Assembly (NCBI RefSeq): GCF_003473485.1
Contig: NC_053046.1
Span: 3,792,001 to 3,856,000, forward strand
Reading direction: 5' to 3'
Source: Medicago truncatula
Taxonomy: Eukaryota > Streptophyta > Magnoliopsida > Fabales > Fabaceae
Length of the DNA stretch: 64,000 nt
The notes beneath the pieces are model-generated. The model did not search any database. It saw only the letters and a list, made by a program, of their open reading frames with translations, and was not told the DNA's origin. Below, piece after piece: positions 5,520 to 62,972 of the stretch (position 1 is its first letter; every line of letters begins with the position of its first letter). The position numbers were made by a program, and so were the translations under genes.

Positions 5520-6471
5520 ATTAACCTTTACATGATTAACTTTTGCAATTGTAGTTTCAATATATTCCAAAAACTCATAAAACTTTTTTTAGCAAAAAAC
5601 ACTTATTGCATACAATTTTGAATCGGTTACGATTATTAACATATGTCTGCTCAGTATCAGAATTCACAATAGCCTCCCAAGAAACAATAACCGTCTTCAC
5701 CACTTTCACTTGATTTGATCTTTTTCCCATCTTTGCCTTTGAGATTTTTAACTTTGCAATCTGTCTTACATTTTGCTCTAACATTTTTTCTGATGTGAAA
5801 TTCACACAACAGAGTAGTAGCCTCGGGGAAAACAATATTAACATCATTCATCAAAGCATTGTTCCAATAAGTGACCATGACTTTGGGTGAAATATCTTTG
5901 GATTTCAACAAATCATGGCACCTCTCTATAGCCCAACTGACCTTATCCTCTTTCTCAAACATCATATAAGCAAATGCAATAGAGAACATCAACTCGGTAG
6001 AAGTTACGCCAACAAACTCAAGAAACGAAAGACGGTATTTGTTGGTCTTATAAGTCAAATCCAACACAAGCACATGAGAGAATGTGTTAAACAACTTGAT
6101 GGATTCAGGATGCGCCCAGAAAATATCTTTGTTATCATCGGAATCTGCATGCTTCCTATAATGATACACATACTCCCTCCGTCTTTAAATATAAGCAAAA
6201 TTGACTTTTTAGGTTCATTCATTTAATGATGTATGTGTAGATTTTGCTTATATTTAAAAACGGAGGGAGTACTTATTATCAACCAAGGATTTTATGAGAT
6301 GTTGTATTTATGATCTTGGACCCCTTATAGATTGCATATACATGTAACATGCATTATAAATATGCTTGATAATACTTGTAGTTCGACGATTCATATTCCT
6401 TAAATTGATAAGAATATGTCTTGGAGGAACCAAACAGTCTGTCAAGGCACGAAGGTGACTACTGTCATTTG
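5520..6471 (-). pseudogene. MULE/FAR1-type transposase, C-terminal part
   Basis: On the minus strand the translation follows the MULE transposase order. First comes the block LVPPRHILINLRNMNRR at about 6430, then YNACYMYMQSIRGPRS. After the Stowaway insertion come YHYRKHADSDDNKDIFWAHP and VLDLTYKTNKYRLSFLEFVG, the first catalytic-Asp block. CEFHIRKNVRAKCKTD follows, then a frame change near 5760, then VIVSWEAIVNSDTEQ. Frame breaks and the 101-bp insertion at 6171-6271 make it non-functional. The upstream half of the same gene is at 30948-31537. The two halves were separated by the outer hAT element, whose 8-bp target duplication sits exactly at the break. It could be a decayed autonomous MULE or a decayed FAR1-related gene. 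Confidence 0.8.
6171..6271. mobile_element. Stowaway-like MITE
   Basis: This 101-bp hairpin has terminal repeats TACTCCCTCCGT and ACGGAGGGAGTA and a TA target duplication, the signature of Stowaway elements mobilised by mariner transposases. It interrupts the MULE transposase reading frame, which continues on both sides. Confidence 0.9.
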
Positions 6472-6489
6472 CAGTGGCGGAACCAGACA

Positions 6490-6753
6490 AAAATATTTGG
6501 GATGGCCGCCATCAAAATAAACTAGAATATATAAATCGTTTTGCATATAACATATTCCAGGCTCACGTTCTAAATAATTCTTAATGTGTTTCGGTATAAC
6601 TCTATTTTTCTTTGAAAGATAAGGCTCATTTTCTTCAATTCTTGAATTCTCACAAACTTGTTCAGGTTCAGAAGAAGAAATTATAACGTCTTCATCATTT
6701 TCAATATCATTGGCCTTCCTCTTGTAAAATGAATAGATTTTTTGATTCTTCAT
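6490..6753 (-). pseudogene. TTF/zf-MYM-type hAT transposase N-terminal fragment
   Basis: From ATG at 6753 the minus strand reads MKNQKIYSFYKRKANDIEND, the typical start of plant TTF-type zinc finger (zinc finger MYM-type 1-like) hAT proteins. It then gives an acidic stretch and IKNYLEREPGICYMQND, matching the ERDPG block before the zinc finger. The frame then runs into the terminal repeat at 6472 and ends. The zinc finger, catalytic core and dimerisation region are missing, consistent with internal deletion. Confidence 0.65.
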
Positions 6754-8247
6754 CTTGATTCTTCTGTTGCAAAGAAACAAATTTATCATTACAAAATGAT
6801 GTAAGAAGTCAAACATGAACCAAAACTACCCCAAATGAACATATGAAGCATAGAGTAAGAAGTCAAACAAACAACATTATAAGCTGCATAAGTCAATATT
6901 GAAATAAAGAATCCTCTTGGCCCATAAGCATAAAAAAATTTCTATAACATATCAAAACCATTTCTATAATTCTCATAAATAAGATTAGCCAAAATACTCT
7001 TTCCACCACTACCATTATAACTACCTTGAACCATCAGTCTTTGACTCATAACATCAATTGGGGTCTACACTAATTGTGCATGTATAGCAGAAGACCAGAA
7101 GTAACACTAACTGCAGCACTAGCTATAGCAGCAGCAGTGTTATCCGAGAAACCCAATTCAACAAACGCAAAACTAAAAAATAAATAAATAACTGGACACT
7201 GACATTTTCCTTAATTATGTTAAGATATGAATTTTAAAAATAGTACCTGCAATTTCACAAAGTAGGATCTTAGCTAGATGTTAGCACATGGTCCCGTTAT
7301 TCGAATTCAGTCACTCCTAACCCCACGCTCTCAATTGCCCTGCAAAACCATTACTCTATATTCAATATCTACAATGGAAAACATACATAAAAACCTTGAT
7401 TTACCTGAGCAGTAGTATTATTAACAAAAATAAAAAATCCCCTTTTGTTTTGATTAGGGTTGTTATACCCTGTTTTTGGACCTAAAAATATTGGGCCCAA
7501 TTTCATTTCAAACTTTGTCAATTATCAAATTTCAACTGCACAGTTCAATTTGTCTCTGTCTCGCAGTATTTTCAATCACAATTTTACCTATGTTTTTCTT
7601 GCATAAAACCTTTCAAAATGTCTTTACTTGTCTTGTAAGTCATTCAAAAGTGTCTCTGAATCATTGCATTGCTTTTTCTACAGTTTATTTCAAAATTTGC
7701 AAAAAGTCATACAGAAGGGTATTTTGGACATCTCCTGCAGTGGGACCCATTTTCATCCTTGTGACTGTCTCTGAGTCTTTTCGAATTGTTTTTTACATTT
7801 CATCAGTAAACCTTGTTAAAATTCATTTCAAACTTGCGTCTGAGTCAGTGTTGAGTCAATTTCAATCTGTTTAGGTCGTTTTTAGCCCTAGGGGCATTTT
7901 GGTCATTTCACATAAAATTTTGGCATGGGGAGGTTACTTTGAAGTACCTCATTTAGGCCATTGGTTCGTTTTAGTCCGTTTTGTCAATTTTATTTTTTGT
8001 TTTTTGTTTCACTTTACGTTTGGTCAAATTATGTTTTTTATTCAAATTTTATTTTTAATTGCATTTTGGTCCCTCAATTGAGGTCCCAAAATTGCATTTT
8101 TGTCCAAACTGTTTTTTGTTTATTTCATTTCAAGTTTTTTTAATTTTGCAGTCCAGTCCTTGTCATTTTCACAATTTGCAGATTGGTCCTTAAATAAAAA
8201 TAGCAAGCAGCGCCCAAGTAAGCAAGTCCAGGATACGTGTCAGTTCT

Positions 8248-8282
8248 CCATTGGCCAAACAGTACACTTGTCAGCTATAAAA
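8248..8282 (+). promoter_or_regulatory. LTR promoter: CCAAT-like box and TATA box
   Basis: An inverted CCAAT (ATTGG within CCATTGG, 8248-8254) precedes TATAAAA at 8276-8282, followed by a CT-rich leader (8350-8362). This is a plausible start of the element's genomic RNA. The same site exists in the 3' LTR at 23631-23637, where it would direct transcription towards the neighbouring host DNA. Confidence 0.55.
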
Positions 8283-9303
8283 GCAACACAGTGTCAATGA
8301 ATTTCACACGTTTTTCGATTCATCAAGTGCCAACTCATAAACACAGAGTCACACTCTCTCTCTTGTCAGTTACAAATCAAAACAGAAAAAGCTTCAACAT
8401 TCATCAATGGCGTAAACCTAACCTTTTCCAGAAACAGAAACTACACAAATTCAAGCTATTTTTCATGGATTCTCAGTGAGTCTTTGAAGAATCATCATCA
8501 TTGAATCAGTATCTTCGCAATTCAAGGTGCGAATTCGCCAAAGGCAAACTCCAGCACCGATCACGAAGATACAGTGAGGAAGACGAAGAAGAAGGAAAGA
8601 TAATGAAGGTTTAAACCGGCGAAGAAGACGATAAAGCAAGAAACCAGCAGGAACACCGGTTTATTTCCGGATTCAAAGCCAAATCACATAGCATCAGGGA
8701 TTGAAGTTTTCCAAAGCATTTCTCCATTGAAGGTTTCAACCAAAACCTTAGGTAAAACTCAGAATCTCTTCTCAAGATAATATCACTGTTAAACCTAAAA
8801 AACACGCAAGCAAAACAGATCCAAAGGTTCCAGAATTCAAAGAAAAACTATAACCGTAAACATCAAAGTCTAGATCCGTAAGGATCAACGTTTTGAAGGC
8901 GAGAATAAGCATCAAAAAGTAATCAAACGACGAAACGATGTAGATCTTTAAAGATCTAAACGATCTCATTCAAAAATCAAAAAAAATCATTTCAAAACCG
9001 TAAAAGTTTTTTTAAGATCTATGTCGTTTCAAGCCGTAATTGAAAAAACGAATGCTGGATTCGTGTTTAGGGTTAAAGGACGAATCAAAATATGCAAGAA
9101 TCTTTGAAATCTGGAATTTTAGGTCACCAGAAACTGCATGAACTCGCCGGAGAAGATGAAGTTTCCGGCGGACCTTCAAGGTCTCCGCCGTAGCTTCATC
9201 CTCGCCGGCGGCGAGGTTAGAGAGAAGTGAGAGATGAGAGAAGAGGGAGGAACTTAGAGAGAGAAAGGGAAGTAGAAAAATGAAAAAACCGGAGCTCTGT
9301 TGC

Positions 9304-9310
9304 TTTTATA
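9304..9310 (-). promoter_or_regulatory. Antisense TATA box inside the LTR
   Basis: On the minus strand TATAAAAGCAACAGAG (9310 downwards) nearly copies the plus-strand promoter TATAAAAGCAACACAG at 8276. The two face each other about 1 kb apart. A pyrimidine-rich leader (CTCTCTCTAAG, CTCTTCTCTCATCTCTC) follows on the minus strand. Function is inference. Confidence 0.35.
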
Positions 9311-10987
9311 AGCCAGCGAACCGGACCGGTCCAAGACCGGTCCAATCCCTTTTGTTCCTGGCCGTTTGATCTAGGGTTTTAGAATCCTGGATCAATCGTG
9401 CGTCCCCTGTGCATCCGGGTCTGTTGGTTATTGGGCTTGGGCTTTATCCATTGTTTTTTTACGTTTTTTGCTCCTTTTGTGCTATTCACACTGTTTTTTT
9501 TGCTACTTGCACCTGTTGCTTGCTCACCCTTTTTTATAAGAAAATCCTAAAAATCCTGGTTATTTCTTGGTATATTCTTGGCATTTCTATGGTGTTTCTT
9601 GCATAAAAAAAGATGTTAAAGTGGCATGAACTAATTCCATGTGCTTTTACACTTTTGGTATGTATTTTGCTATGTTTTGTTCTTGACATTTTGATATTAT
9701 GACATGGATAAAGGATGCCTAATATGGTGATGAATATGCCTCTGGAAATGTGTTTTTGTTTGCTGTTTTTGAATATGATTTTATGAATTTCTTGTTTTGC
9801 AAGCAACAAGTTTAGTCTTAAGGAATAAAGTGGCAAATTCCTCTATGAACTTGGTGTGATATTTTGCATGCACATGTCTCCATTAATTGCATGTCATGGT
9901 TTAAAACAAAATTTCTTTCAAAATTGCCATGATGTGATAGTTATGGGTCACTAGCATCTTTAGATATCATATCAAATGTCTTTTAGGTTTATTACCACTT
10001 TATTACTTTTTTTCTTTGCCATCTTTATGCATTTCCTTTTAATTACTTCCTACTATTGTGTGCTTTATGATTACTAACCATTTCATCTCATGTGCCATTC
10101 ATTTCATAGCATTCCACCACTCTCTCCACTTTCTTTAGCTTAGCATTTATTTTTGCAAGTTTTAATTCATTTGGTAATGTAATTTGTTATCATCGGTATG
10201 TAGCTTGGCAAAGGGGCCATAGAATGTATTTAGGCAATTTTTGTAATATGGACTATGGACACTATGACGCACCGACACGCACACACTCACCTTAGATGTA
10301 TGCATAGGATTGTATGTTTAGATAAGCGTATAGGTTTGAACACTTAGATAAAAATCCAACTTTTTTCCAAAAAGAACATGCAAATAACTTCACTTGAAAA
10401 CCTTTTTGAAAATAAAATGGAGTCAAAACTCCTTATTTTCCCCTTTATTTTCTTAAGTAAAATTTTCAATAAATCTTAATCCTCCATAGACTTCATTTTG
10501 AAAAAGACTAATTCCACCTCACTTTTTCCAAATCTTATGCCCTTGAGGCCTCTCATCTCTATTCTTCAAAATCTCTTTTCAAACTTAAAATCAACCAACA
10601 AAAACAAAAACCATTTTTTTGAGAATGAACTACGAACGGTTTTGATCCCTTAAAAGGGTACGTAGGCAATGAGTCAAAACTCATCCAAGCCGAAATAAAA
10701 TCAAATTCTACTTCTTCTCACCCCCATTCTTAACTAATCACACTTTCTTTTTTACAAATAAGCAATAAAATTAAAGCGTAGAAATAAACTTAGGAGAGCG
10801 GTTCTTATGGAATACCATAATCGCTCCGGGTGCCTAACACCTTCCCGTAGCGAAAACGACCCCCGAATCTAGAACTTTTTAAGGGTTTTTCTCCTTTTAC
10901 CCTTCCCAAGAAAAAAGAGAGATATCAACGGTCAAAAGGTTCAAGTCCAATTAATGGCTTGGCACCCAAAAACCATGATAACAGAAA

Positions 10988-11006
10988 TGGCGACTTCACT
11001 GGGGAC
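10988..11006 (+). other. Primer-binding site
   Basis: TGGCGACTTCACTGGGGAC starts four bases after the 5' LTR. TGGCGAC is complementary to a 3' end GTCGCCA, as in some plant tRNA-Arg species, and tRNA-Arg is the reported primer of Ogre elements. The exact tRNA cannot be confirmed from the window. Confidence 0.7.
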
Positions 11007-11693
11007 TCTTTTTAGCGGGTCGCGCCTAGTTTTCCTTAGTTTATATTTACGCTTTGTTTTATTGCTTACATATGTGAATACTTGTTTACTTTCATTTGAC
11101 GTGTGGGGTAAGAATATCAAAAGTCCTAACCCAGGCTGAGTGAACTTATGTTAGGGTAGAGATATAATCGACAATTCAATCCGGGGGTTGCCTCGTGTAT
11201 TGGATTATGCGATCAATCTCACATAGCTGAGGCATTTTGAAGGTGATATTGTCGGCGTGTGTTGTCATGCTTAGGCACTTCACTTTCAATTGTTCGACGA
11301 AGCTATGAACCGTAGTTACCAAACCCATCCTAGCCTTTTTAGGACGTAGTGCGGTGGCTAAATTGAGTGTTGTCTCAAACTTTAGTCGTCACGCGATACT
11401 ACACTCAAACTAGACCTTCTCACAAATAATCATGGAACGGGTGTCGTCCTGTACTACCATGATATATGTGAGAGAGGTTGCAGTTTGGGAACTGTGTTAG
11501 AACCTTGGTTACTATTATCTGAAGCCTTAGTTCACCGGACGCCGTGTCCATCCGTGGCCTTGTTACTTTGGATCTCAACCCACATTGTAACTAAACAACA
11601 CAATCATGCATACATGCATTCATGCATAAACATTTTTTCATGCATTCATCGAAGGGTTTAAACAAATGGAAATTTTTGTAAATAACCACAGGT

Positions 11694-13124
11694 ATGAAGA
11701 AGACTAAGTGCTACAAGTTCAAGGAAGTGGATTTGGTTAGTTTGAGAGAGTTGGCACTCAAGGTCAAGAGTCAAACAGGGTTCCGACTCCGGTATGGGGG
11801 ATTGCTTACTTTGCTCCGAACCGATGTGGATGAGAAGTTAGTGCACACTCTAGTGCAATTTTATGATCCGAGCTTCCGCTGCTTCACTTTCCCGGACTTC
11901 CAGTTGGTTCCTACTCTCGAGGCTTACTCCAATCTAGTGGGTTTACCCATAGCCGAGAAGGCACCTTTCACCGGTCCCGGAACTTCTCTTACTCCTCTGG
12001 TTATTGCTAAGGATCTCTACCTCAAGACTTCCGACGTCTCCAACCATCTTATTACCAAGTCTCACATCCGGGGGTTCACTTCGAAGTATCTTCTTGATCA
12101 GGCTAATCTCGGTACCACTCGCCAGGACACACTCGAGGCTATTCTTGCTTTGCTTATCTACGGGCTCATTCTCTTTCCGAACCTCGACAACTTCGTGGAC
12201 ATGAATGCTATCGAGATCTTTCATTCCAAGAACCCGGTTCCTACTTTGCTAGCAGACACCTACCACGCCATTCATGACAGGACTCTCAAAGGCCGTGGGT
12301 ATATTCTTTGCTGCATACCTCTTTTGTATAGGTGGTTTATTTCGCACCTTCCGAGTTCCTTCCATGATAACTCGGAGAATTGGTCCTACTCGCAGCGGAT
12401 TATGGCCCTCACTCCTAATGAGGTCGTCTGGCTCACTCCCGCCGCTCAAGTGAAGGAAATCATCATGGGTTGTGGAGGCTTTCTCAACGTACCTCTTCTT
12501 GGTACTCGTGGAGGAATTAACTACAACCCCGAGCTTGCTATGAGACAGTTTGGTTTTCCTATGAAGTCGAAGCCCATCAATCTTGCTACATCTCCAGAGT
12601 TCTTCTTCTATGCGAATGCTCCTACCGGACAAAGGAAAGCTTTCATGGATGCTTGGTCCAAGGTTCGAAGGAAGAGTGTGAAGCATCTAGGTGTGAGATC
12701 CGGTGTTGCTCATGAGGCTTATACTCAGTGGGTGATAGATCGAGCTGAGGAGATTGGTATGCCTTATCCAGCTATGAGATACGTGTCTTCATCCACTCCA
12801 TCTATGCCTCTACCTCTACTCCCCACAACTCAGGATATGTATCAGGAGCATCTAGCTATGGAGAGTCGTGAGAAGCAAGTGTGGAAAGCTCGGTACAATC
12901 AAGCCGAGAATCTAATCATGACTTTGGATGGTAGAGATGAGCAGAAGACTCATGAGAATCTGATGTTGAAGAAAGAACTAGCTAAGGCCCGGAGGGAATT
13001 GGAAGAGAAAGACGAGCTGCTTATGAGGGATTCCAAGAGAGCCCGAGGACGACGAGACTTCTTTGCCAGATACTGTGATTCAGATTCCGAGTCCGACGAT
13101 GCTCCGACTACTTCCTATGCTTGA
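11694..13124 (+). CDS. Ogre ORF1 protein (plant-mobile-domain-like), unknown function
   Basis: This uninterrupted 476-residue frame lies between the primer-binding site and gag, the position of the extra ORF1 that defines Ogre elements. The N-terminal two thirds is globular (for example QFYDPSFRCFTFPDFQLVPT and YGLILFPNLDNFVD) and resembles the plant mobile domain / aminotransferase-like proteins spread by retrotransposons. The C-terminal third (about 385-460) is a charged coiled coil (LMLKKELAKARRELEEKDEL) ending in an acidic Ser/Asp tail. No catalytic signature is visible. Its function is not known in the family. It has no frameshift, in line with the youth of the copy. Upstream, 10984-11693 is untranslated leader. 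Confidence 0.85.
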   Translation: MKKTKCYKFKEVDLVSLRELALKVKSQTGFRLRYGGLLTLLRTDVDEKLVHTLVQFYDPSFRCFTFPDFQLVPTLEAYSNLVGLPIAEKAPFTGPGTSLTPLVIAKDLYLKTSDVSNHLITKSHIRGFTSKYLLDQANLGTTRQDTLEAILALLIYGLILFPNLDNFVDMNAIEIFHSKNPVPTLLADTYHAIHDRTLKGRGYILCCIPLLYRWFISHLPSSFHDNSENWSYSQRIMALTPNEVVWLTPAAQVKEIIMGCGGFLNVPLLGTRGGINYNPELAMRQFGFPMKSKPINLATSPEFFFYANAPTGQRKAFMDAWSKVRRKSVKHLGVRSGVAHEAYTQWVIDRAEEIGMPYPAMRYVSSSTPSMPLPLLPTTQDMYQEHLAMESREKQVWKARYNQAENLIMTLDGRDEQKTHENLMLKKELAKARRELEEKDELLMRDSKRARGRRDFFARYCDSDSESDDAPTTSYA

Positions 13125-13411
13125 GGGCTTCATGTGTTTATTTCAAAGTCTTTCTTTTGAGAATACTATGTAGTTTTGATTATTTGCAAGATTTCTAATT
13201 TGTTTAAAAATCCTTCGATGAAAAAATAAGTCTTTCGCATTTGCATTTGCATATCATGCATCATATGCATCATGCATTGGTCGCAAAGGCTTCCAAGTGC
13301 TCACTACCTCCTGGTTTCTCTGCCACAGTGTGAAAAGTGGCTCGTGCTCAGAGAATTTACGAACCTGATAGAATTGATCGAACCAGAGAATACAGAAGAA
13401 AGAAAAGGGCT

Positions 13412-16400
13412 ATGGAAGAAGAGAACACGCAGCTTCGTACCGAATTGGCATCTTTAAGGGAGGAATTGGCCAAAGCTCATGATGCTATGACTGCTCTGTT
13501 GGCTGCTCAGGAACAACCAGTTCCTGTAGTTTCTACAGCTGCAAATGTGACTCCTACAGTAACGACTGATCCCCGCTTTATCATGCCATCCGGGTATCCT
13601 TACGGACTTCCGCTGTACTATACTGCTAATACGGGGGCAGGGACCTCTGGTACTACCAACAGTGGCCCGATCCCAGGGGCAAACTTAACTCCAGTTAGTA
13701 CCGCCTTGACTCAAGCCGCAACAACTGTTACCGAGCCCATTGTGAATGCAGTGCCTCTATTTGTCCATGCTAATGCGCACCACGGGAGTATTGCCACAAC
13801 CGGAACTATGGAAGAGAGAATGGCAGAACTTGCCAAAGAGCTCCGACGGGAAATTAAGACCAACAGGGGAAATGGAGACTCCATTAAAACCCAGGATCTC
13901 TGCTTGGTATCGAAGGTAGATGTTCCAAAAAAGTTCAAAGTCCCGGAGTTCGACAAGTATAACGGGCTGACTTGTCCTCAAAATCATATTGTCAAATATG
14001 TCCGGAAGATGGGCAACTACAAGGACAATGATTCCCTTATGATCCATTACTTCCAAGACAGTCTGATGGAAGATGCTGCAGAGTGGTATACTAGTCTGAG
14101 CAAAGACGATGTCCATACTTTTGATGAGCTGGCCACTGCTTTCAAGAGCCACTACGGGTTTAACACTCGATTGAAGCCGAATAGGGAGTTTCTCAGGTCC
14201 CTATCTCAGAAAAAGGAGGAAAGTTTCCGTGAATATGCGCAAAGGTGGAGAGGGGCAGCTGCCCGTATCACTCCTGCTTTAGATGAAGAAGAAATGACCC
14301 AGACGTTCTTAAAGACCTTGAAAAAAGATTATGTTGAGAGGATGATCATCGCTGCCCCGAACAACTTTTCGGAGATGGTCACCATGGGAACCCGTCTTGA
14401 GGAAGCCGTCAGGGATGGAATCATTGTGTTTGAGAAAGCTGAATCCTCTGTGAGTGCATCGAAGAGATATGGTAATGGACACCACAAGAAGAAAGAAACG
14501 GAAGTGGGGATGGTGTCAGCTGGAGCCGGTCAATCAATGGCTACCGTTGCTCCTATCAATGCAGCTCAAATGCCTCCGTCATACCCATATATGCCGTACT
14601 CTCAGCATCCGTTCTTCCCACCGTTTTATCATCAGTACCCTTTGCCACCGGGCCAGCCTCAGGTGCCCGTCAATGCAATTGCCCAACAGATGAAACAACA
14701 GTTGCCGGTTCAACAACAACAACAACAACAACAACAGCAGCAGCAGTATACTAGACCAACTTTTCCTCCTATACCAATGTTGTATGCAGAACTTCTTCCA
14801 ACTTTACTCCAGAGAGGACACTGCACGACTAGACAGGGTAAGCCCCCACCTGATCCGTTGCCTCCAAGGTTCAGGTCTGATCTCAAATGTGACTTTCATC
14901 AAGGTGCCTTAGGTCATGATGTCGAGGGGTGTTATGCTTTGAAGTATATCGTGAAGAAACTCATTGATCAAGGGAAGCTGACTTTTGAGAATAATGTTCC
15001 ACATGTCCTCGACAATCCGCTACCAAATCATGCCGCTGTGAATATGATCGAAGTGTGTGAGGAAGCTCCTAGACTTGATGTCCGCAACGTCGCAACTCCT
15101 CTAGTGCCTCTGCACATCAAGCTGTGCAAAGCTTCTCTGTTCAGCCATGATCATGCCAAGTGTCTAGGATGCCTCCGTGATCCTTTGGGTTGCCATGCTG
15201 TTCAAGACGACATCCAAAGCTTGATGAATGATAATCTTCTGACTGTCAGTGATGTTTGCGTGATTGTGCCAGTTTTTCACGATCCGCCTGTCAAGAGCGT
15301 ACCTTTGAAGAAGAATGCTGAGCCTTTGGTGATAAGGTTGCCAGGACCAATTCCTTATGTTTCGGACAAGGCAGTGCCATACAAATACAATGCTACTATG
15401 ATAGAAAATGGAGTAGAGGTGCCTCTAGCCTCCTTTGCCACAGTAAGCAATATTGCCGAAGGGACTTCTGCAGTGCTAAGAAGCGGGAAGGTTCGTCCGC
15501 CATTATTTCAGAAGAAGGTAGCTACGCCAATCACTCCACCAGTTGAAGAAGCAACTCCAACCGTTGTTTCACCCATTGCTACAGATGTGAATCAGCCAGG
15601 CAAATCTATAGAGGATTCGAATTTAGATGAGATTCTGAGGATAATAAAGAGGAGCGACTACAAGATCGTTGATCAATTGCTGCAGACTCCTTCGAAGATA
15701 TCTGTATTGTCATTGCTCTTGAGCTCCGAGGCTCACAGGAATACCTTGTTGAAAGTGCTGGAGCAGGCTTATGTTGACCACGAAGTCTCGGTAGATCGTT
15801 TCGGTGGCATAGTGGGAAATATTACTGCTTGTAACAACCTCTGGTTTAGTGAAGAAGAGTTGCCGGAAGTGGGAAAGAGTCACAATCTGGCTTTGCACAT
15901 CTCGGTGAATTGTAAATCAGACTTGATATCAAATGTGTTGGTGGATACCGGTTCCTCTCTCAATGTAATGCCCAAGACAACTCTAGATCAGTTGAGCTAC
16001 CGTGGGACCCCTTTGAGGAGAAGTACTTTCTTGGTCAAAGCTTTTGATGGATCTCGAAAGAATGTGCTGGGGGAGATAGACTTGCCAATAACCATTGGCC
16101 CTGAGAATTTCTTGATTACCTTCCAAGTGATGGACATTAATGCATCCTACAGTTGTCTGCTGGGAAGACCGTGGATACACGATGCGGGTGCGGTAACCTC
16201 CACCTTACATCAGAAGTTGAAGTTCATAAGGAATGGAAAGCTTGTTACCATTCATGGAGAAGAAGCATATTTAGTCAGCCAGCTGACTTCTTTCTCTTGT
16301 ATTGAAGCAGGGTCTGCTGAAGGGACTGCTTTCCAAGGTTTGACCATTGAGGGTGCAGAGCCTAAGAAAGCTGGGGTTGCTATGACTTCATTGAAAGATG

Positions 16401-16660
16401 CTCGGAAGGTTATCCAGGAAGGTCAGACTGCCGGTTGGGGCAAGGTGATACAGCTCTGTGAGAACAAGCGTAAAGAAGGTCTCGGGTTCTCCCCGTCATC
16501 AAGGGTTTCCTCGGGAGTCTTCCACAGTGCAGGGTTTGTTAATGCTATCTCTGAAGAAGCCACTGGATCTGGTCTCAGGCCTGTATTTGTTACACCAGGA
16601 GGCATTGCGACAAATTGGGATGCCATTGACATTCCTTCAATCATGCATGTTTCTGAGTAA
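13412..16660 (+). CDS. Ogre Gag-protease polyprotein
   Basis: The frame is open from 13334. The first ATG is at 13412 and the TAA stop at 16658-16660. The order is a coiled N-terminus (MEEENTQLRTELASLREEL), the retrotransposon gag capsid domain (about 14040-14440, with DAAEWYTSL and FREYAQRWRGAA), a poly-Gln run (14709-14747), and a Cys/His motif CDFHQGALGHDVEGC (14888-14932). An aspartic protease with the catalytic triplet in VLVDTGSSLNVMP (about 15936-15974) follows, then a G-patch-like stretch GWGKVIQLCENKRKEGLGF near the end. Gag packages the RNA and the protease cuts the polyprotein. The stop codon overlaps a splice donor (next entry), so this may be the unspliced product. Confidence 0.9.
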   Translation: MEEENTQLRTELASLREELAKAHDAMTALLAAQEQPVPVVSTAANVTPTVTTDPRFIMPSGYPYGLPLYYTANTGAGTSGTTNSGPIPGANLTPVSTALTQAATTVTEPIVNAVPLFVHANAHHGSIATTGTMEERMAELAKELRREIKTNRGNGDSIKTQDLCLVSKVDVPKKFKVPEFDKYNGLTCPQNHIVKYVRKMGNYKDNDSLMIHYFQDSLMEDAAEWYTSLSKDDVHTFDELATAFKSHYGFNTRLKPNREFLRSLSQKKEESFREYAQRWRGAAARITPALDEEEMTQTFLKTLKKDYVERMIIAAPNNFSEMVTMGTRLEEAVRDGIIVFEKAESSVSASKRYGNGHHKKKETEVGMVSAGAGQSMATVAPINAAQMPPSYPYMPYSQHPFFPPFYHQYPLPPGQPQVPVNAIAQQMKQQLPVQQQQQQQQQQQQYTRPTFPPIPMLYAELLPTLLQRGHCTTRQGKPPPDPLPPRFRSDLKCDFHQGALGHDVEGCYALKYIVKKLIDQGKLTFENNVPHVLDNPLPNHAAVNMIEVCEEAPRLDVRNVATPLVPLHIKLCKASLFSHDHAKCLGCLRDPLGCHAVQDDIQSLMNDNLLTVSDVCVIVPVFHDPPVKSVPLKKNAEPLVIRLPGPIPYVSDKAVPYKYNATMIENGVEVPLASFATVSNIAEGTSAVLRSGKVRPPLFQKKVATPITPPVEEATPTVVSPIATDVNQPGKSIEDSNLDEILRIIKRSDYKIVDQLLQTPSKISVLSLLLSSEAHRNTLLKVLEQAYVDHEVSVDRFGGIVGNITACNNLWFSEEELPEVGKSHNLALHISVNCKSDLISNVLVDTGSSLNVMPKTTLDQLSYRGTPLRRSTFLVKAFDGSRKNVLGEIDLPITIGPENFLITFQVMDINASYSCLLGRPWIHDAGAVTSTLHQKLKFIRNGKLVTIHGEEAYLVSQLTSFSCIEAGSAEGTAFQGLTIEGAEPKKAGVAMTSLKDARKVIQEGQTAGWGKVIQLCENKRKEGLGFSPSSRVSSGVFHSAGFVNAISEEATGSGLRPVFVTPGGIATNWDAIDIPSIMHVSE

Positions 16661-20427: not shown

Positions 20428-20453
20428 AAATATGAAAAGAACAGCGTGGTAGG

Positions 20454-21331
20454 TCGAAAACCCGAAAGGGCGGCCTAGGCAAAAATGCGCTTCCCGGTGG
20501 ATCGAAAACCCGAAAGGGCGGTCCAGGCAAAAATAAGGGACAAAAAAATATATGAAAAGCTCGCTGAGATTGTACACAACTCAGGCAAGAATGAGCGTCT
20601 CGATGAGCCGAAAACCCGGAAGGGCGGTTCATGCAAAAATGAGATTGAAACAAAAGGCAAGTAACTATATCTGGCCAACCACCGTCCCCCTTGGGGCATC
20701 TGCTGCTGTTAATGACTATCTTCATCTAAAGCCTCTGTGCTTGTGAATTCAAAATTTCCAGGAAATGTAGTGATTACTGTGTTCAATGTACCACCAACCA
20801 ATAAAATTACCATTTTCCAAGCTTTGTGAATCCGTGGAGTCATGCCTTTGGCTGACCACCACTCTTATACATCAATTTGAGCCTTTGCTTTTGTTTGAAA
20901 ATTCTATTTTTTCTTCTACTTTCAAAGCTATATACAAAACATTTTCTTTCTATTTTGATAATGACAATGCTTGAAACAAACATTTTGAAAATTGAAAACC
21001 TTTTGTCTATTTTGAAAAGCAAACCTGAGCAACAGGGTACATTCAAATGAAACATGCATGAGCGAGAGTATGTTGATGTCTATTTCAATATATGTTATAA
21101 GCAGGTTCTCCTCCAGGATAGTCTGTGGTCAATGGCAAGAATGAAAAAACAGAACGAAAACGCATGAAAACAAATGAGCTCGCTAAGTTGAAAACCCGAA
21201 AGGGCGGCTTAGGCAAAAATGAGCACCCCGCTGGATTGACAACCCGAAAGGGCAGTTCAGGCAAAAATGGGGCATTGAAAAGAATTTATTTCCCTGGTGG
21301 ATCGAAAACCCGAAAGGGCGATCCAGGCAAA
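20454..21331 (+). repeat. Dispersed AAAACCCGAAAGGGCGG motif repeats
   Basis: Six copies of a ~30-base unit containing ACCCGAAAGGGCG-like sequence and ending GGCAAAAATG occur near 20454, 20502, 20606, 21187, 21233 and 21299. The core ACCCGAAAGGGC-type sequence could form a small hairpin (CCC/GGG). They lie in the untranslated 3' region just after pol, and similar motifs are familiar from other Tat/Ogre elements. Confidence 0.75.
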
Positions 21332-21899
21332 AATGGGATGCAAAAAATGAAAATGAGAATATAACATGCAAAAAGCATTGACCACAGATGAAATGTCTAC
21401 AACATACCCAGCACTGAAATGCCCAGCACAACGGCGTTTTCCCCAGTAAAGTCTTCCAAGATTCTATCTCCAGCAAGTTGCATACCTGCCTGCCCTCAGC
21501 CTTGGCTCCGATACGTCTCCCAACGACGTCATCTCCAAAGAGGATTTCCAAGAATGTGTAATATAGCACGAGCCACTACGTGCCCAATGCTCTAATGTCT
21601 TGTCTTCCCCGTGAAGTCGTGCCTACAAAATGCCAACAGTCATGCATTACAAGCATTCATACATGCATAATCATGCATATTACGTATCCATGCATTTAAT
21701 GAATCTGTTATATCGTCCATGCATATTGCATTTCCAATGTCAACATCAGTCTCAATTCAATACTCATGTCAGGTTCTCTGTCGAAACTTTGTGAGCCAAT
21801 AATATCGGTCAATTTCTACCTTTCAAATCAAATCGACGTCAAGTCAATCTCAATCTATATTTTGTCAGAATAAACCAATCCCCAGTGAATATGTTTCTG

Positions 21900-22540
21900 T
21901 TTGGTCAAGTGGCTAGTTCAAGTCCAGGAACAGCTTGTACCTATCAATTTGCTTATGTTATCGGTCAAGTGCCCAGCTCAATCCAAGAGCAGCTTGTACC
22001 TGTCAATATGTTTCCGTTTGGTCAAATGGCTAGCTCAATCCAAGAGCAGCTTGTACCCGTCTATCTGTTTCTGTTCGCTCAAGTGGCTAGCTCGATCCAA
22101 GAGCAGCTTGCGCCTGTCCATTTTGTCTTTGTCTCCGGTGGAGTAACCAGTTCGCATCCAAGAACAAGCTCACACCTGTTTATTTGCCTTTGCTTTCAGT
22201 CGAGTAACCAGCTCAAAGCCCAAGAGCAGCTCGCACTTGTCAATTTGCCTTGCGTTCAGTCGAGTAACCAGTTCGAATCCGTAAGAACAACTCGTACTTG
22301 CCAATTTTCTCTTTTTCCAGTCGGGTCACCAGTTCGAATCCATAAGAACAACTCGCACTTTCCAATATCCCCAAGTGAGTTACCAGTTCGAATCCATAAG
22401 AACAACTCATGTTTGTCCAGTAACCTCTATCCCCTGTGAAGTGACCAGTTCGAATCCATAAGAACAACTCGCAGTTGTCTGTTTGTTTCATCCCCGGTCA
22501 AGTGGCTAGTTTGAATCCAAGAACAGCTTGTACCTGTCCA
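21900..22540 (+). repeat. ~60-bp tandem repeat array in Ogre 3' region
   Basis: About eleven diverged units of 55-62 bp follow each other, each with a GTCAAGTGGCTAG-like start, an AATCCAAGAGCAGCTTG-like middle and a CCTGTCAATTTG-like end (starts near 21904, 21963, 22020, 22077, 22137, 22199, 22257, 22319, 22372, 22437, 22497). The frames across it are by-products of the periodicity. Variable minisatellites in the 3' untranslated region are known for Tat-lineage elements. Confidence 0.85.
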
Positions 22541-22801
22541 GCTTGTTTCTAGTTTCCCGTTACTCTGCTATTCACTATCTTTGTCAATGTCCACCAATCC
22601 CGCAATGGATACGACATATTTTGTTAATTCCAATCCCCATGAGATCTTGCATTCATAATCCAAATGATGCATGGCATGCATATTATTTGAAAATGGGTAG
22701 GCGTATTTTTACGTCCAAACACAGTGCAAATGCTAATATTTAAGTATCTTCGTCCTGTCAAGCCAAAGGCTCCGTCTCTTGACTCTCCAGACAAAGAAAC
22801 T

Positions 22802-22815
22802 TAAATAGGGGCAGC
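22802..22815 (+). other. Polypurine tract
   Basis: TAAATAGGGGCAGC lies immediately before the 3' LTR. Ogre-like polypurine tracts commonly end GGGGGCAGC before TGT, and this matches in form and place. It would prime plus-strand DNA synthesis. Confidence 0.75.
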
Positions 22816-25800
22816 TGTTATACCCTGTTTTTGGACCTAAAAATATTGGGCCCAATTTCATTTCAAACTTTGTCAATTATCAAATTTCAACTGCACAGTT
22901 CAATTTGTCTCTGTCTCGCAGTATTTTCAATCACAATTTTACCTATGTTTTTCTTGCATAAAACCTTTCAAAATGTCTTTACTTGTCTTGTAAGTCATTC
23001 AAAAGTGTCTCTGAATCATTGCATTGCTTTTTCTACAGTTTATTTCAAAATTTGCAAAAAGTCATACAGAAGGGTATTTTGGACATCTCCTGCAGTGGGA
23101 CCCATTTTCATCCTTGTGACTGTCTCTGAGTCTTTTCGAATTGTTTTTTACATTTCATCAGTAAACCTTGTTAAAATTCATTTCAAACTTGCGTCTGAGT
23201 CAGTGTTGAGTCAATTTCAATCTGTTTAGGTCGTTTTTAGCCCTAGGGGCATTTTGGTCATTTCACATAAAATTTTGGCATGGGGAGGTTACTTTGAAGT
23301 ACCTCATTTAGGCCATTGGTTCGTTTTAGTCCGTTTTGTCAATTTTATTTTTTGTTTTTTGTTTCACTTTACGTTTGGTCAAATTATGTTTTTTATTCAA
23401 ATTTTATTTTTAATTGCATTTTGGTCCCTCAATTGAGGTCCCAAAATTGCATTTTTGTCCAAACTGTTTTTTGTTTATTTCATTTCAAGTTTTTTTAATT
23501 TTGCAGTCCAGTCCTTGTCATTTTCACAATTTGCAGATTGGTCCTTAAATAAAAATAGCAAGCAGCGCCCAAGTAAGCAAGTCCAGGATACGTGTCAGTT
23601 CTCCATTGGCCAAACAGTACACTTGTCAGCTATAAAAGCAACACAGTGTCAATGAATTTCACACGTTTTTCGATTCATCAAGTGCCAACTCATAAACACA
23701 GAGTCACACTCTCTCTCTTGTCAGTTACAAATCAAAACAGAAAAAGCTTCAACATTCATCAATGGCGTAAACCTAACCTTTTCCAGAAACAGAAACTACA
23801 CAAATTCAAGCTATTTTTCATGGATTCTCAGTGAGTCTTTGAAGAATCATCATCATTGAATCAGTATCTTCGCAATTCAAGGTGCGAATTCGCCAAAGGC
23901 AAACTCCAGCACCGATCACGAAGATACAGTGAGGAAGACGAAGAAGAAGGAAAGATAATGAAGGTTTAAACCGGCGAAGAAGACGATAAAGCAAGAAACC
24001 AGCAGGAACACCGGTTTATTTCCGGATTCAAAGCCAAATCACATAGCATCAGGGATTGAAGTTTTCCAAAGCATTTCTCCATTGAAGGTTTCAACCAAAA
24101 CCTTAGGTAAAACTCAGAATCTCTTCTCAAGATAATATCACTGTTAAACCTAAAAAACACGCAAGCAAAACAGATCCAAAGGTTCCAGAATTCAAAGAAA
24201 AACTATAACCGTAAACATCAAAGTCTAGATCCGTAAGGATCAACGTTTTGAAGGCGAGAATAAGCATCAAAAAGTAATCAAACGACGAAACGATGTAGAT
24301 CTTTAAAGATCTAAACGATCTCATTCAAAAATCAAAAAAAATCATTTCAAAACCGTAAAAGTTTTTTTAAGATCTATGTCGTTTCAAGCCGTAATTGAAA
24401 AAACGAATGCTGGATTCGTGTTTAGGGTTAAAGGACGAATCAAAATATGCAAGAATCTTTGAAATCTGGAATTTTAGGTCACCGGAAACTGCATGAACTC
24501 GCCGGAGAAGATGAAGTTTCCGGCGGACCTTCAAGGTCTCCGCCGTAGCTTCATCCTCGCCGGCGGCGAGGTTAGAGAGAAGTGAGAGATGAGAGAAGAG
24601 GGAGGAACTTAGAGAGAGAAAGGGAAGTAGAAAAATGAAAAAACCGGAGCTCTGTTGCTTTTATAAGCCAGCGAACCGGACCGGTCCAAGACCGGTCCAA
24701 TCCCTTTTGTTCCTGGCCGTTTGATCTAGGGTTTTAGAATCCTGGATCAATCGTGCGTCCCCTGTGCATCCGGGTCTGTTGGTTATTGGGCTTGGGCTTT
24801 ATCCATTGTTTTTTTACGTTTTTTGCTCCTTTTGTGCTATTCACACTGTTTTTTTTGCTACTTGCACCTGTTGCTTGCTCACCCTTTTTTATAAGAAAAT
24901 CCTAAAAATCCTGGTTATTTCTTGGTATATTCTTGGCATTTCTATGGTGTTTCTTGCATAAAAAAGGATGTTAAAGTGGCATGAACTAATTCCATGTGCT
25001 TTTACACTTTTGGTATGTATTTTGCTATGTTTTGTTCTTGACATTTTGATATTATGACATGGATAAAGGATGCCTAATATGGTGATGAATATGCCTCTGG
25101 AAATGTGTTTTTGTTTGCTGTTTTTGAATATGATTTTATGAATTTCTTGTTTTGCAAGCAACAAGTTTAGTCTTAAGGAATAAAGTGGCAAATTCCTCTA
25201 TGAACTTGGTGTGATATTTTGCATGCACATGTCTCCATTAATTGCATGTCATGGTTTAAAACAAAATTTCTTTCAAAATTGCCATGATGTGATAGTTATG
25301 GGTCACTAGCATCTTTAGATATCATATCAAATGTCTTTTAGGTTTATTACCACTTTATTACTTTTTTTCTTTGCCATCTTTATGCATTTCCTTTTAATTA
25401 CTTCCTACTATTGTGTGCTTTATGATTACTAACCATTTCATCTCATGTGCCATTCATTTCATAGCATTCCACCACTCTCTCCACTTTCTTTAGCTTAGCA
25501 TTTATTTTTGCAAGTTTTAATTCATTTGGTAATGTAATTTGTTATCATCGGTATGTAGCTTGGCAAAGGGGCCATAGAATGTATTTAGGCAATTTTTGTA
25601 ATATGGACTATGGACACTATGACGCACCGACACGCACACACTCACCTTAGATGTATGCATAGGATTGTATGTTTAGATAAGCGTATAGGTTTGAACACTT
25701 AGATAAAAATCCAACTTTTTTCCAAAAAGAACATGCAAATAACTTCACTTGAAAACCTTTTTGAAAATAAAATGGAGTCAAAACTCCTTATTTTCCCCTT

Positions 25801-26338
25801 ATTTTTCTTAAGTAAAATTTTCAATAAATCTTAATCCTCCATAGACTTCATTTTGAAAAAGACTAATTCCACCTCACTTTTTCCAAATCTTATGCCCTTG
25901 AGGCCTCTCATCTCTATTCTTCAAAATCTCTTTTCAAACTTAAAATCAACCAACAAAAACAAAAACCATTTTTTTGAGAATGAACTACGAACGGTTTTGA
26001 TCCCTTAAAAGGGTACGTAGGCAATGAGTCAAAACTCATCCAAGCCGAAATAAAATCAAATTCTACTTCTTCTCACCCCCATTCTTAACTAATCACACTT
26101 TCTTTTTTACAAATAAGCAATAAAATTAAAGCGTAGAAATAAACTTAGGAGAGCGGTTCTTATGGAATACCATAATCGCTCCGGGTGCCTAACACCTTCC
26201 CGTAGCGAAAACGACCCCCGAATCTAGAACTTTTTAAGGGTTTTTCTCCTTTTACCCTTCCCAAGAAAAAAGAGAGATATCAACGGTCAAAAGGTTCAAG
26301 TCCAATTAATGGCTTGGCACCCAAAAACCATGATAACA
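22816..26338 (+). repeat. 3' LTR of Ogre element
   Basis: It is 3,523 bp, with TGTTATACCC at the start and ATAACA at the end, offset 15,355 from the 5' LTR. The target duplication AGGGT follows at 26339. Differences from the 5' LTR were seen at about 24483, 24967 and 25800-25801. Confidence 0.95.
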
Positions 26339-26740
26339 AGGGTTATGGGAAAATTGAAATTGAAAATCAAATCAAAAATCAAATTCAATAACAAACATAA
26401 AGACATTGAAACAATATCATTACTTACTAACGCATGAAGAATCAAATTAAAATACACTTACAATTTTATTTTAGGGTTTGTAGAGAGATTGAGACCAATG
26501 AAAAATCAAAGTCAGAGATTGATGCAGAGAGTTTGCCGGTCACGGGATTGTCGGTGGGTAGGGCTGGCAATGAACCGAACCAACTCGAATATAGTTCGTA
26601 ATTCGACTCGACAATTGGTTCATTGAACTTGGTTCATGAACCAAATGAGCCGAACTTGAGCTGAAAATTAAGTTCGTTAATTAAATGAGTTGAACTTGAA
26701 CTATAAATGGTTCGATTCGTTAGGTTCATGAGATGACTCG

Positions 26741-26742
<2 letters not shown>

Positions 26743-26787
<45 letters not shown>
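26743..26787. repeat. (TA)n microsatellite
   Basis: About 45 bases of uninterrupted TA dinucleotide lie inside the left subterminal part of the inner hAT element. It is likely length-polymorphic. Confidence 0.95.
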
Positions 26788-26791
<4 letters not shown>

Positions 26792-27647
26792 TTTAGAAAC
26801 TTTTATATTTTTTTACATGAATTAAATATATAAAAAAATCCCTAAAAAAAAAGATGTATAAAAAAAAGAACATGTTGTCACGTATCTCAAAAAACATTTA
26901 TCCATCCGTTCCACTTAGGAAGTAGGAACGTTTCTTCTTCTCCATCTCCATTTATTTTCTCCATTTATTTTTGCATGTATCTTCATTATTCCATTTTCCA
27001 ATTCCACGCCAACATACAACGTTTCTTCTTCTTCTGCTCCGGCCATAGACAAGTTCAGCAAGGGGCAAGACTCAATCAAAAGAGAAGGTCATTCTTCTTC
27101 TCTTCTCTAGAGGTATTTGCTTCTGATCAATTTTGTGCTCATTTGTTTCTTTGTTCTTGTACTGACTTTTGAGTGATTTATAGTAAAATTTGTGTTGATT
27201 TGTTTAAGAATTCTCTGTTATTAGATTATTGCAGTGTATCTTTTTTAATCTATGTTTTGGATTCCAATTCTAGAATTGTAGTGTTTAACATAGAAAAAAA
27301 ATGATAGTTTTCCCTTTCTTTCAATCTATATACTCTTATGTTTTTTTTTTCAAAATGGGTTAACTTATTGATAGGATTAAAAATTTAGAAAGGCTTCTTT
27401 AAACAAATTTTTGGAGTTAAGTGTCTTTGCTAGATTGGATTTGTATGTTTTTTGGAACTTTGTGATGACAGAAAAGGTTGTAACTTCGATTTCAATGCAT
27501 CAATGTTTTGGTTTTATTTGGAATGTTCATTGTTTGGAGCATTGATGGATGCACTGTTGAGAATTTTTTTTGGGTTAATTTGTTATGTATTTTTTTGTAC
27601 CAATAAATTTCTATTTTATAACATCATGAAGTTTTCATTTTGTAGAG

Positions 27648-29842
27648 ATGTCAGCTAGTACGTCAATTGAATCCTTGGGAGGTTCACCCCAAAATAATGG
27701 AGAAGAGTGTTTAAGTTTGTTGAATCCTATCATTGATTTAGATGTGAATACAAACGAAGAACCACTAACAAATGAAGCAACACTGACAAATGAAGTTGGG
27801 AATGAAGAGAATGTCGAGAACAACGGCGTTATTCAAAAGGCTAAGAGAAAGAAAACTTCTCCAGATTGGGATCACTTCAAAGAAGTGAAGTTAAAGGATG
27901 GAACCAAAAAATGGCAATGTTTACATTGTAAAAGAACTTATGTTGTTGCGAGTGGGTCAACTAGCCATTTGAAGAGACATTTAAGGGAAGTATGTCTTAT
28001 TTACAAGAAGCTAGCAGCACAACAACAAAAATTAAACTTGAAGCCAGCACAAAGCATGATTGATGAGAAGCTTTCCGGACCACTACTTATGAATCCAAGC
28101 GCTAAGTATGATCATGAGAGACAACGAGAAGCCACTGCACATTGGGTTATGATGCATGAACATCCATTTAGTATTGTTGAGGAAGAAGGTTTTCTTTTCA
28201 TGATGAAATGTTCTAATTTCTCATATGAGAAAATTAGTCGAAAAACATTGAAGAATGATTGTGTTGCTGTCTATGAATCTGAAAGGAAGAAGTTAAAGTC
28301 AACTTTGAGGACAATTAATAAGATTTGCTTGACCACTGATTTATGGAAGTCGCAAAATCAAAAGATAGAATACATGGTGCTAACTGGCCATTTCATTGAT
28401 GCTGATTGGGTTTTGCAAAAGCGCGTTCTCAGTTTTGTTCATGTTCCTCCTCCTCGACGTGGTGTTGATATTGCTGATGCTATCTTCAAATGTATCAAAG
28501 AATGGGGCATTGAAAATAAAATATTTAGTGTGTCTGTGGATAATGCATACTACAATGATAGATGTTTGAAAGAGCTAAAAGTTTTACTTTCAAGGCACCA
28601 AAAATTAGTGTTGGATGGAAAGTTGTTTCATGTCCGCTGTTGTGCCCATATACTAAACTTGCTTGTCCAAGATGGTATTGGAAGAATCAGAGAAATAGTT
28701 GAAAAAGTGCATGACAGTGTGAGGTTTATCAATTAGTCTGAAGCAAGATTGCGAACGTTCTCGGAAATAGTTCAACAACTAAAGCTTGGTGGTAAAAAAT
28801 TAATTCTTGACTGCCCTACTCGATGGAACTCCACATATCAAATGCTGTCAGTTGCAATACAGTTCAAAGAAGCTTTTCCACGTTTTCAAGATCGAGAACC
28901 AAGTTATACAACTCTTCCAGATGAAGATGAGTGGGAAAAAGTTGAAAAAGTTTGCAAGCTGCTAGAGGTATTTAATTCTGTTACAAATATAATTTCTGGT
29001 AGTGAATATCCAACTTCTAATTTATATCTTGCTGAGGTGTTTCAAATCAAGCAAGTGTTAGATCAAGTTGTTCAAGATGAGTCTAACTTCATGAAAGACA
29101 TGGCAAACGCGATGAAGGAAAAATTTGACAAGTATTGGGGTCAATGTAATCTTGTTATGTCCCTTGCTTCTGTTTTGGACCCTAGGATCAAAATGATGGG
29201 AGTAAACATGTGCTTTCCTTTAATTTACCCCAGAGATGAAGCTAGCAAAAATATAGAAAAGGTGCAAAAGGCTCTTAATGATATGTACCTAGAGTATGCT
29301 GATAAGCTTCAGGAGCATAGAGAAGAAGGCTCTAGTAGAACTAGTGCTGATCAAAATGGGTTGACATTAGAGCCAACAAGACCCACGGGGTGGTCAAAGT
29401 TAATGAATTATGTCCAAGAACAACAAGCAATTCCTGCTGTAAAATCTGAAGTTCAAGAGTATTTGAATGAGCCAACTTACAAGCCTAACGATAATGGTCA
29501 TATGTCCTTTTGAATAGCGGAAAATATAGAGTATTATCTCATATGGCAGCAGATGTTCTTGCTATTCCAATATCTACTGTGGCTTCAGAGTCAACTTTTA
29601 GCGCTGGGGGGAGAGTTATCGACCCATTTCGAGCTTCCCTACATTCTTCTACCGTTGAAACTTTAATTTGTGGTGGTGATTGGCTTCGAGTATTGCATGG
29701 GATTAGGAACAAACCTAAAGTAATGTATTTTCTCTTGATCATTATATATAGTTTAATCTTTCAAAAAAAGTGTTGATGATTTATCGATATTTTTTATGAA
29801 TAGGTGGAGCATGTTTCGACAGAAATCACATTATTCCCTTGA
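27648..29842 (+). pseudogene. BED-type hAT transposase, two breaks
   Basis: The frame opens at ATG 27648, directly after an acceptor-like TTTGTAG. It has a BED zinc finger at about residues 75-115 (WDHFKEV, CLHCKRTY, HLKRHL). The transposase core has LTTDLWKS, FSVSVDNAYYND and HVRCCAHILNLLV. A TAG at 28734-28736 interrupts the same frame. Near 29507 a small deletion shifts frame just before the C-terminal dimerisation block (NSGKYRVLSHMAADVLAIP, STVASESTFSAGGRVID). A last small exon after an intron (GT at about 29720, AG at about 29802) would end at 29842. Both breaks argue against an active protein. Confidence 0.85.
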
Positions 29843-30558
29843 TGTTAAGTAGGTACGTTTCTTTTTCATTTAATTGACAAGAAGCTAGTGTGAATATATG
29901 TTGGCAAAGATAGCATTTTTGTATTGGGTAAAAGCCACTAATCAGAAATATAGCATATATGTTGAGTAAGCTTATGGAATCTTCATAAGGTTTTGTGTCT
30001 AAACATAACTATGATATGACATTTACGGGCATGAATAAGGATTTTTAGCATAGTCCAAGACCTTTTATTATTATGCTTTTACCATTAAACGATTTTTCCT
30101 TTATTAAGTTGTTTATTGATATGTGACATTTTTCAGGATGTTGATCCACTTTCTCGTTTGTTGTTCAGAATTGTTGCTGCTATAGAGTTCGCATCATGTT
30201 TGAAGTTTGTTTCTTTCTAAATGAGTAAAGATTAAGTTGAAGGTTGTGTTAAATGTGGCTGAATACAATTTTGTCTTTAAGGGGAGAGCAATTGGAGTTT
30301 GGAAGTAGAAAAATATTATGCATTCTGTTATCGACTAATTGAGTTTTGTTGGATTTTTTGTATCAGATATTTTTTTTCTTCGTATTTATGCAACCTTTAA
30401 CTTTATATAATTTATGTCTATTCTATGCATGCTTGTGGGAACTTTTATTTTACTTCAATATTTACTTTAAAAAAAATAAAAAATAAATATATGTATATAT
30501 ATAAAATATCAAAGATCTATAAATTAACTTTTTTTTATAAATTTTTTTGGACGAGTTG
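29843..30558. other. Inner hAT 3' untranslated and subterminal DNA
   Basis: This AT-rich stretch follows the transposase remnant. I see no coding sequence. The terminal 150 bases of the element after it hold the GAGC-rich subterminal repeats. Confidence 0.5.
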
Positions 30559-30947
30559 AGCAAACGAACTAAACCTAACGAGCTGAACTCGAGCTGAAAA
30601 AATAGTTCGTGTCGAACTCGAGCCGAGTTTCGAGCCGAACCAATTCTTATCGAGTCGAGCCGAGCTCAGACAGGTTCGGTTCGACTCGACTCATTTCCAG
30701 CCCTACCGGTGGGAGAGGGTGGTGACTGATGTCGTGGGATTGCCTGTGGGTGGCGAGAAGCGAAAATATGGCTTGTTCTTTTCTTTCCCGTTCTGGAGAA
30801 AATTGGCAATGAGAGTGGGATGTGGGTGAGTGAGTGGCATGGCAGTAATATTAAAAATAACTTAGGAATATTATGGTATTTTCCCAGAATTAATGGGTAG
30901 GCCATGGCCATACCCAGTCCTCACGTGGCTCTGCCACTGGTCATTTG

Positions 30948-31537
30948 GGTTTAGACGTCTGCCGGTTTTATGACCTTTCAATTCAAGTGTCATCTCATGG
31001 TTGTGTTTTTCTGTTACCAACTTTAAGGCTTTAATTACCAACAATCAACAAATAACCTCTCGTACGAAACAAACACTAACATTTCACCGAACCCATTATC
31101 TTACGCTTATACATCGTACTCTTTATGTGAGCCTCCTTTTTCACATATTAATATAATAAATGCATTTTGGTCATTTCCACTATTATCTTATTTACCGATA
31201 ACAACGGTAAATCCTAGCTTCCTTGCTTCTTCTCGAACTCACTCAAACAACTCGTTCCGTGATGCAAACTTTCTTTTAATGGTAAATTGTTTCCGATGAT
31301 CAATAGAAATAACTACATGCTCAACATTTGGAGCATCATCAGGTGCAGGTAAAACAAGTGGAGGAACATCATCCACCTTCGCATCGCATCGCAGGAAGGA
31401 ATATCAACTAGAGGTGGGGGATCCTCGGATTTAGCATTGTTAGAATCATCCAAAACTCAAGGTGGAACAATAAGTAACACAATGTGTGGTTTAAATGTTA
31501 GGTGCAAATGGAGGGGGTCATCAATGGGAGCATCCAT
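30948..31537 (-). pseudogene. MULE/FAR1-type transposase, N-terminal part
   Basis: On the minus strand a possible start ATG (31535-31537) opens MDAPID. After one stop and a frame change, the sequence gives VEHVVISIDHRKQFTIKRKF, then VREEARKLGFTVV (the conserved block before the zinc-binding region of MULE transposases). It then gives KHNHEMTLELKGHKTGRRLN, the HNH-containing block. The reading runs straight into the target duplication GTCATTTG at 30940-30947 and continues in the same frame from 6471 downwards with DSSHLRALTDCLV. It is therefore the upstream half of the pseudogene at 5520-6471. Confidence 0.8.
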
Positions 31538-62944: not shown

Positions 62945-62972
62945 TACATTTTTAATGGGTTTTAGTGATTTA

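Follow-up and report, generated by a model that had tools for sequence, protein, structure and literature searches.

Composition of the nest

The 64,000-nucleotide window analysed here belongs to contig NC_053046.1 of the Medicago truncatula assembly GCF_003473485.1 (positions 3,792,001 to 3,856,000, forward strand), and all coordinates below are counted from its first letter. It holds a nest of transposable elements, now confirmed as genuine, in which a Mutator-like element (MULE) is interrupted by a hAT element (hAT1) and by a Stowaway-like miniature inverted-repeat transposable element (MITE), and in which hAT1 is in turn interrupted by an Ogre long terminal repeat (LTR) retrotransposon and by a second hAT element (hAT2). 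The first-pass annotation of this DNA had counted four levels of insertion; the depth is three, Ogre and hAT2 being siblings that lie side by side within hAT1, neither inside the other.

The MULE is a pseudogene on the minus strand. Its C-terminal half, interrupted by the MITE, occupies positions 5609-6471 and contains the MULE transposase domain PF10551 (5657-6184, Pfam E 1.3e-18); the N-terminal half, together with an upstream part of the element, occupies 30940-32077. Both spans rest on paralogue alignments, in which other copies remain similar between 5609 and about 32077, and these limits replace those of 5520 and 31537 given earlier. As had been proposed, the reading frame continues past the junction, GRRLNPND being followed by SSHLRALTD when one copy of the target duplication is retained. 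Although the frame crosses the junction, the gene contains several stops and frame changes and is not open from end to end. Within the genome, the places matched by one half are also those matched by the other, 10 in all (11 loci, of which L009 and L046 are one place and were counted once); matches to different families, which would have told against a single split gene, were not what this comparison returned. A peptide spanning the junction was matched across the join in all 10 fetched loci.

An extra insert at 31499-31852, suggested by comparison with L009, was dropped, as L049, L054 and L057 align through this stretch; judging from the alignments, L009 probably carries a deletion there. In another paralogue, L055, frames following the MULE (about 2596-3180 of that locus) show by eye a likeness to an OTU cysteine protease and give no Pfam match.

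hAT1 spans 6472-30939 including its inserts, and 1430 bp of its own sequence remain without them (6472-7460, 26344-26558 and 30714-30939). Its ends, read inward, are the short terminal inverted repeats (TIRs) CAGTGGCGGAACCA and CAGTGGCAGAGCCA, and flush with them stand two copies of GTCATTTG (6464-6471 and 30940-30947) identical in 8 of 8 bases. Duplications of 8 bp are typical of hAT transposons. Pfam recognised no hAT transposase domain in the window copy, whose longest frame was examined. L031, a longer relative that shares these ends, does have a Dimer_Tnp_hAT domain (8e-8), and we therefore interpret hAT1 as non-autonomous, related to a hAT family but not itself an autonomous hAT. Both ends are present at 7 of 18 other places belonging to its family, where the duplication agrees in 7 or 8 of its 8 bases.

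hAT2 (26559-30705, plus strand) contains a broken transposase gene with a zf-BED finger, a hAT-like RNase-H domain and a C-terminal dimerisation domain. Its TIR is TAGGGCTGG, its ends read TAGGGCTGGCAATGA and TAGGGCTGGAAATGA, and flush with them are TCGGTGGG (26551-26558) and CCGGTGGG (30706-30713), which agree in 7 of 8 bases. A full-length sibling, L044, has a duplication of 8 of 8 bases and lacks both lesions of the window gene, a stop and a 22-bp gap. Compared with the plant hAT transposons outlined in PMC6027215, hAT2 shares the BED finger and the C-terminal dimerisation region and differs in its broken gene, whereas hAT1 differs in that no transposase domain could be recognised in its own sequence. 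Among the literature matches listed, the TIR string CAGTGGCGGA appeared only in work on silkworm MITEs and was absent from a plant hAT paper.

The Ogre element (7461-26338, plus strand, 18,878 bp), assigned to the Tat lineage of Ty3/gypsy elements, is flanked, flush with its ends, by AGGGT at 7456-7460 and 26339-26343, identical in 5 of 5 bases. Its 5' and 3' LTRs (7461-10983 and 22816-26338) are both 3523 bp long and differ at 4 sites, two of them adjacent. Directly 3' of the 5' LTR lies TGGCGACTTCACTGGGGAC, which may be a primer site complementary to tRNA-Arg. There follow an extra frame 5' of gag (DUF7745, 11682-13124, 1e-118), a gag-protease frame (13334-16660; Retrotrans_gag 1.2e-10, protease matches below cut-off) and a frame for reverse transcriptase, RNase H, a second RNase H and integrase (16915-20112). 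In the last of these, the second RNase H sits before the integrase (RT_RNaseH 424-526, RVT_3 599-709, rve 884-981), an arrangement common to Ogre and Retand according to PMC6317226. The same paper gives an average separation of about 274 bp between the Ogre polyprotein frames; here the two frames, taken from stop to stop, are 254 bp apart.

Medicago Ogre is described with an extra frame upstream of gag in PMC2533021. The Ogre1 (Mtr57) element of Medicago truncatula characterised there shares with ours this frame and the interrupted pol region; its LTR measures 3529 bp and the whole element 18,772 bp. No difference between the two was established in a comparison with the published description. 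No further insert was noticed in Ogre or in hAT2 (4147 bp long; sibling L044 has 4193 bp), as judged by these lengths; for the Ogre interior, this rests on length and not on an alignment of its full extent with another copy.

The Stowaway-like MITE in the C-terminal half of the MULE is 97 bp long (6173-6269). It has the TIR CTCCCTCCGT, which as an end sequence is a criterion for Stowaway MITEs, and forms a short palindrome with 31-nt arms 97% complementary, flanked by duplicated TA (6171-6172 and 6270-6271). It is missing from all 6 MULE copies, out of the 10 fetched, in which both flanks were matched, and in these the flanks meet within two bases. With the MITE itself as query, no match at E 0.001 was obtained in the 10 fetched loci. 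Its position within this half of the MULE, noted earlier, is thereby borne out.

Empty sites in paralogous copies

If the layers are successive insertions, uninterrupted counterparts of each junction may be found elsewhere, and paralogues within one genome can serve for such a test. Short flanks were joined over each junction and queried against the own genome (430 Mb, 42 contigs); repeat counts from these searches are lower bounds. For the MULE/hAT1 junction, scores were obtained for the best 40 of 50 first-look candidates, 2 of these rows being the window halves. Of the 38 others, 37 extend over the junction, by 12 bases or more to the left of the duplication and 59 or more to its right, and the remaining one begins inside it. 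The hAT1/Ogre junction is crossed by 21 of 26 non-window rows with at least 15 bases on each side; three more begin 2-9 bases left of the duplication and two are one-sided. The hAT1/hAT2 site is crossed by 3 of 15 non-window rows.

Upon alignment, a single AGGGT is present in all 7 hAT1 copies covering the Ogre site, and all 3 covering the hAT2 site have one site resembling CCGGTGGG. For the MULE, one alignment has a single copy of GTCATTTG, and CAAATGAC/A is found in 7 panel rows. This panel was read over 7 of the 10 loci, L049, L053 and L055 being left out because of their orientation; their matches to the junction peptide and MITE flanks, which are independent of orientation, were counted. 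At the hAT2 site, all 3 paralogues read C where the left duplication copy in the window reads T, and the mismatch between TCGGTGGG and CCGGTGGG is for this reason best attributed to a change that the left copy underwent later.

A match as good as that of GTCATTTG at the same spacing occurs at 1 of 39,504 window positions, one as good as AGGGT at 53 of 45,097 and one as good as the hAT2 duplication at 56 of 59,825, the true site being included in each count. The earlier assignments (the MULE split by a hAT at GTCATTTG, this hAT split by an 18.9-kb Ogre at AGGGT, and a second hAT within the first at TCGGTGGG/CCGGTGGG) agree with the duplications at the element ends and with uninterrupted paralogues at all three sites.

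Age and order of the insertions

The nesting itself gives three series: MULE, hAT1, Ogre; MULE, hAT1, hAT2; and MULE, MITE. It orders neither Ogre relative to hAT2 nor the MITE relative to hAT1, so the proposal that the order of all insertions can be read from the sequence does not hold. From the divergence of the Ogre LTRs (4/3523) we infer an age of about 44,000 years (95% Poisson range 12,000-112,000) at 1.3e-8 substitutions per site per year, the rate used in PMC2533021, and of 87,000 years (24,000-224,000) at 6.5e-9. An alignment of hAT2 with two siblings has 2804 shared columns; at 26 of these the window copy carries a private substitution, and 7 of the 26 fall in the 1112 columns of the coding span. 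At 1.3e-8 these private changes put the age of hAT2 at no more than 0.5-0.7 million years. The two siblings have private counts of 129 and 133, which probably include misalignment near gaps.

These counts bear on the order of the two inserts in hAT1. The private changes of hAT2 lie far above the roughly 2 per LTR branch (in 3523 sites) of Ogre, and because of this difference, and of the T in the left duplication copy where all 3 paralogues read C, sequence comparison suggests that hAT2 was inserted before Ogre. Two things temper this reading: the private substitutions of hAT2 set an upper bound only, some of them possibly preceding insertion, and duplication decay, which we tried as a clock, is a weak one, because the duplication of hAT1 is perfect (8/8) though older than both inserts, including hAT2 with its 7/8. 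Entry of Ogre into hAT1 ahead of hAT2 would be compatible with the nesting, provided that hAT2 already bore the majority of its private changes and lesions on arrival and that the duplication mismatch was a fast C-to-T change. Over 112,000 years, the upper limit of the Ogre age, a uniform rate of 1.3e-8 gives a chance of only about 2% that any of the 16 bases in the duplication changes, and we regard an earlier Ogre as unlikely. The order MULE, hAT1, hAT2, Ogre is most likely.

Two further alternatives concern the nest as a whole and the nature of its outermost gene. Long and nearly identical LTRs are difficult to assemble, and the arrangement could in principle be an assembly or recombination artefact. 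Each junction, however, combines a duplication of a length typical of the element type with an uninterrupted counterpart elsewhere, and an artefact is very improbable. The split gene, for its part, might be a domesticated FAR1-related host gene and not a transposon gene. The domain PF10551 occurs in both MULE and FAR1-type proteins. Intact MULEs are marked by long terminal repeats and a 9-bp duplication; convincing MULE terminal inverted repeats were not found in the stretches searched (window 3000-6471 and L009, which gave AT-rich chance pairs; the right flank was left unsearched). As to the FAR1 DNA-binding domain (PF03101), the window MULE gives a weak match of 13.9 bits against a Pfam cut-off of 28.1 (E 0.094), and the domain was not seen in the N-terminal pieces of three MULE paralogues; the FAR1-type label attached earlier to the gene is not confirmed. 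The 37 further junction-spanning copies scored in the genome, and the stops within the peptide-matched stretch in 7 of the 10 fetched copies, are as for a mobile family, and a host gene appears quite improbable.

Proposed history of the locus

Insertion points, duplications, paralogous empty sites and LTR divergence are direct observations; absolute insertion ages are inferred. Starting from these, we consider it very probable that four independent insertions by ordinary transposition built the locus. A MULE copy would have decayed to a pseudogene, perhaps already broken when hAT1 arrived. hAT1, presumably mobilised by a transposase acting in trans, would have inserted into the coding part of the MULE with an 8-bp duplication. 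hAT2 and Ogre would later have entered hAT1 at separate points, probably hAT2 first, and the Stowaway-like MITE would have entered the MULE before or after hAT1. Of the earlier interpretation, the layers and insertion points are retained in this account; the four levels and the complete order are given up, and the FAR1 label stands unconfirmed.

Several observations weigh against the account of successive insertions. All empty sites are paralogous and come from one genome. At the hAT2 site, 12 of the 15 hAT1 rows end at least 19 bases before the duplication, leaving the empty site to rest on 3 copies. In the hAT1 family, 11 of the 18 other places are without paired ends and a good duplication, some of these stretches being one-ended.

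Whether the Ogre insertion is so recent that accessions still differ in having it is an even question. If they do, Ogre1 would count among the recently active families, and the nest would be a locus with both empty and filled alleles.

Closest to the present nest among known systems are the nested LTR retrotransposons of plants, reportedly a subject of SanMiguel's work of 1996. PMC6911290 describes nesting as common among these elements, and serial insertion and target duplications are found there as here. That study counted LTR retrotransposons within LTR retrotransposons, whereas 4 of the 5 elements of the present nest are DNA elements (MULE, two hATs and MITE). A search for 'related empty site' combined with nesting gave no match in the literature collection used. 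All the elements belong to known kinds, and knowledge of their families is unchanged. With five elements belonging to four kinds, the locus illustrates serial transposition cleanly and in a checkable way, and it could serve as a test case for programs that annotate nests.

Matches to microRNA families

The Rfam family MIR2680 (RF03842) matches positions 17091-17258 on the minus strand with 195 bits, antisense within the Ogre polymerase frame. In the own genome, all 36 places scored, out of 36,682 first-look candidates, pass the cut-off with at least 209 bits; none of 14 control genomes has a match. Eight of the loci were fetched (L068-L075), and all consist of Ogre pol sequence with 94.9-96.2% identity to the window, the MIR2680 match being antisense. 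Compared with shuffled sequences, the antisense strand shows no clear advantage in folding (z 1.50 for the window copy, -0.61 for L068), trimmed 132-nt antisense pieces of L068 and L070 give z -1.33, and the sense strand gives z 0.02 (window) and -1.38 (L068). A search for MIR2680 by name found no paper in the literature collection used. On these comparisons, MIR2680 looks like a misannotated retrotransposon fragment, which would be of concern to curators of microRNA families.

The MITE at 6173-6269 has Rfam matches below cut-off to MIR1120/MIR1122, MIR6224 and MIR1862. At 62991-63105, MIR2593 gives a match on either strand, within a palindromic sequence (62971-63125, an inverted repeat) that resembles this MITE, and for this reason the MIR2593 family may also be a MITE.

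Other features of the window

Outside the nest, a frame with a DnaJ domain lies at 830-1564 on the minus strand. On the same strand, a stretch with a Sec16 domain (PF12932, 56732-57157) adjoins a frame of 769 codons (57292-59601) that contains 81-bp tandem repeats and gives no Pfam match; the two are possibly one Sec16-like gene. Two adjacent identical 89-bp copies at 43362-43539 probably represent a recent tandem duplication.

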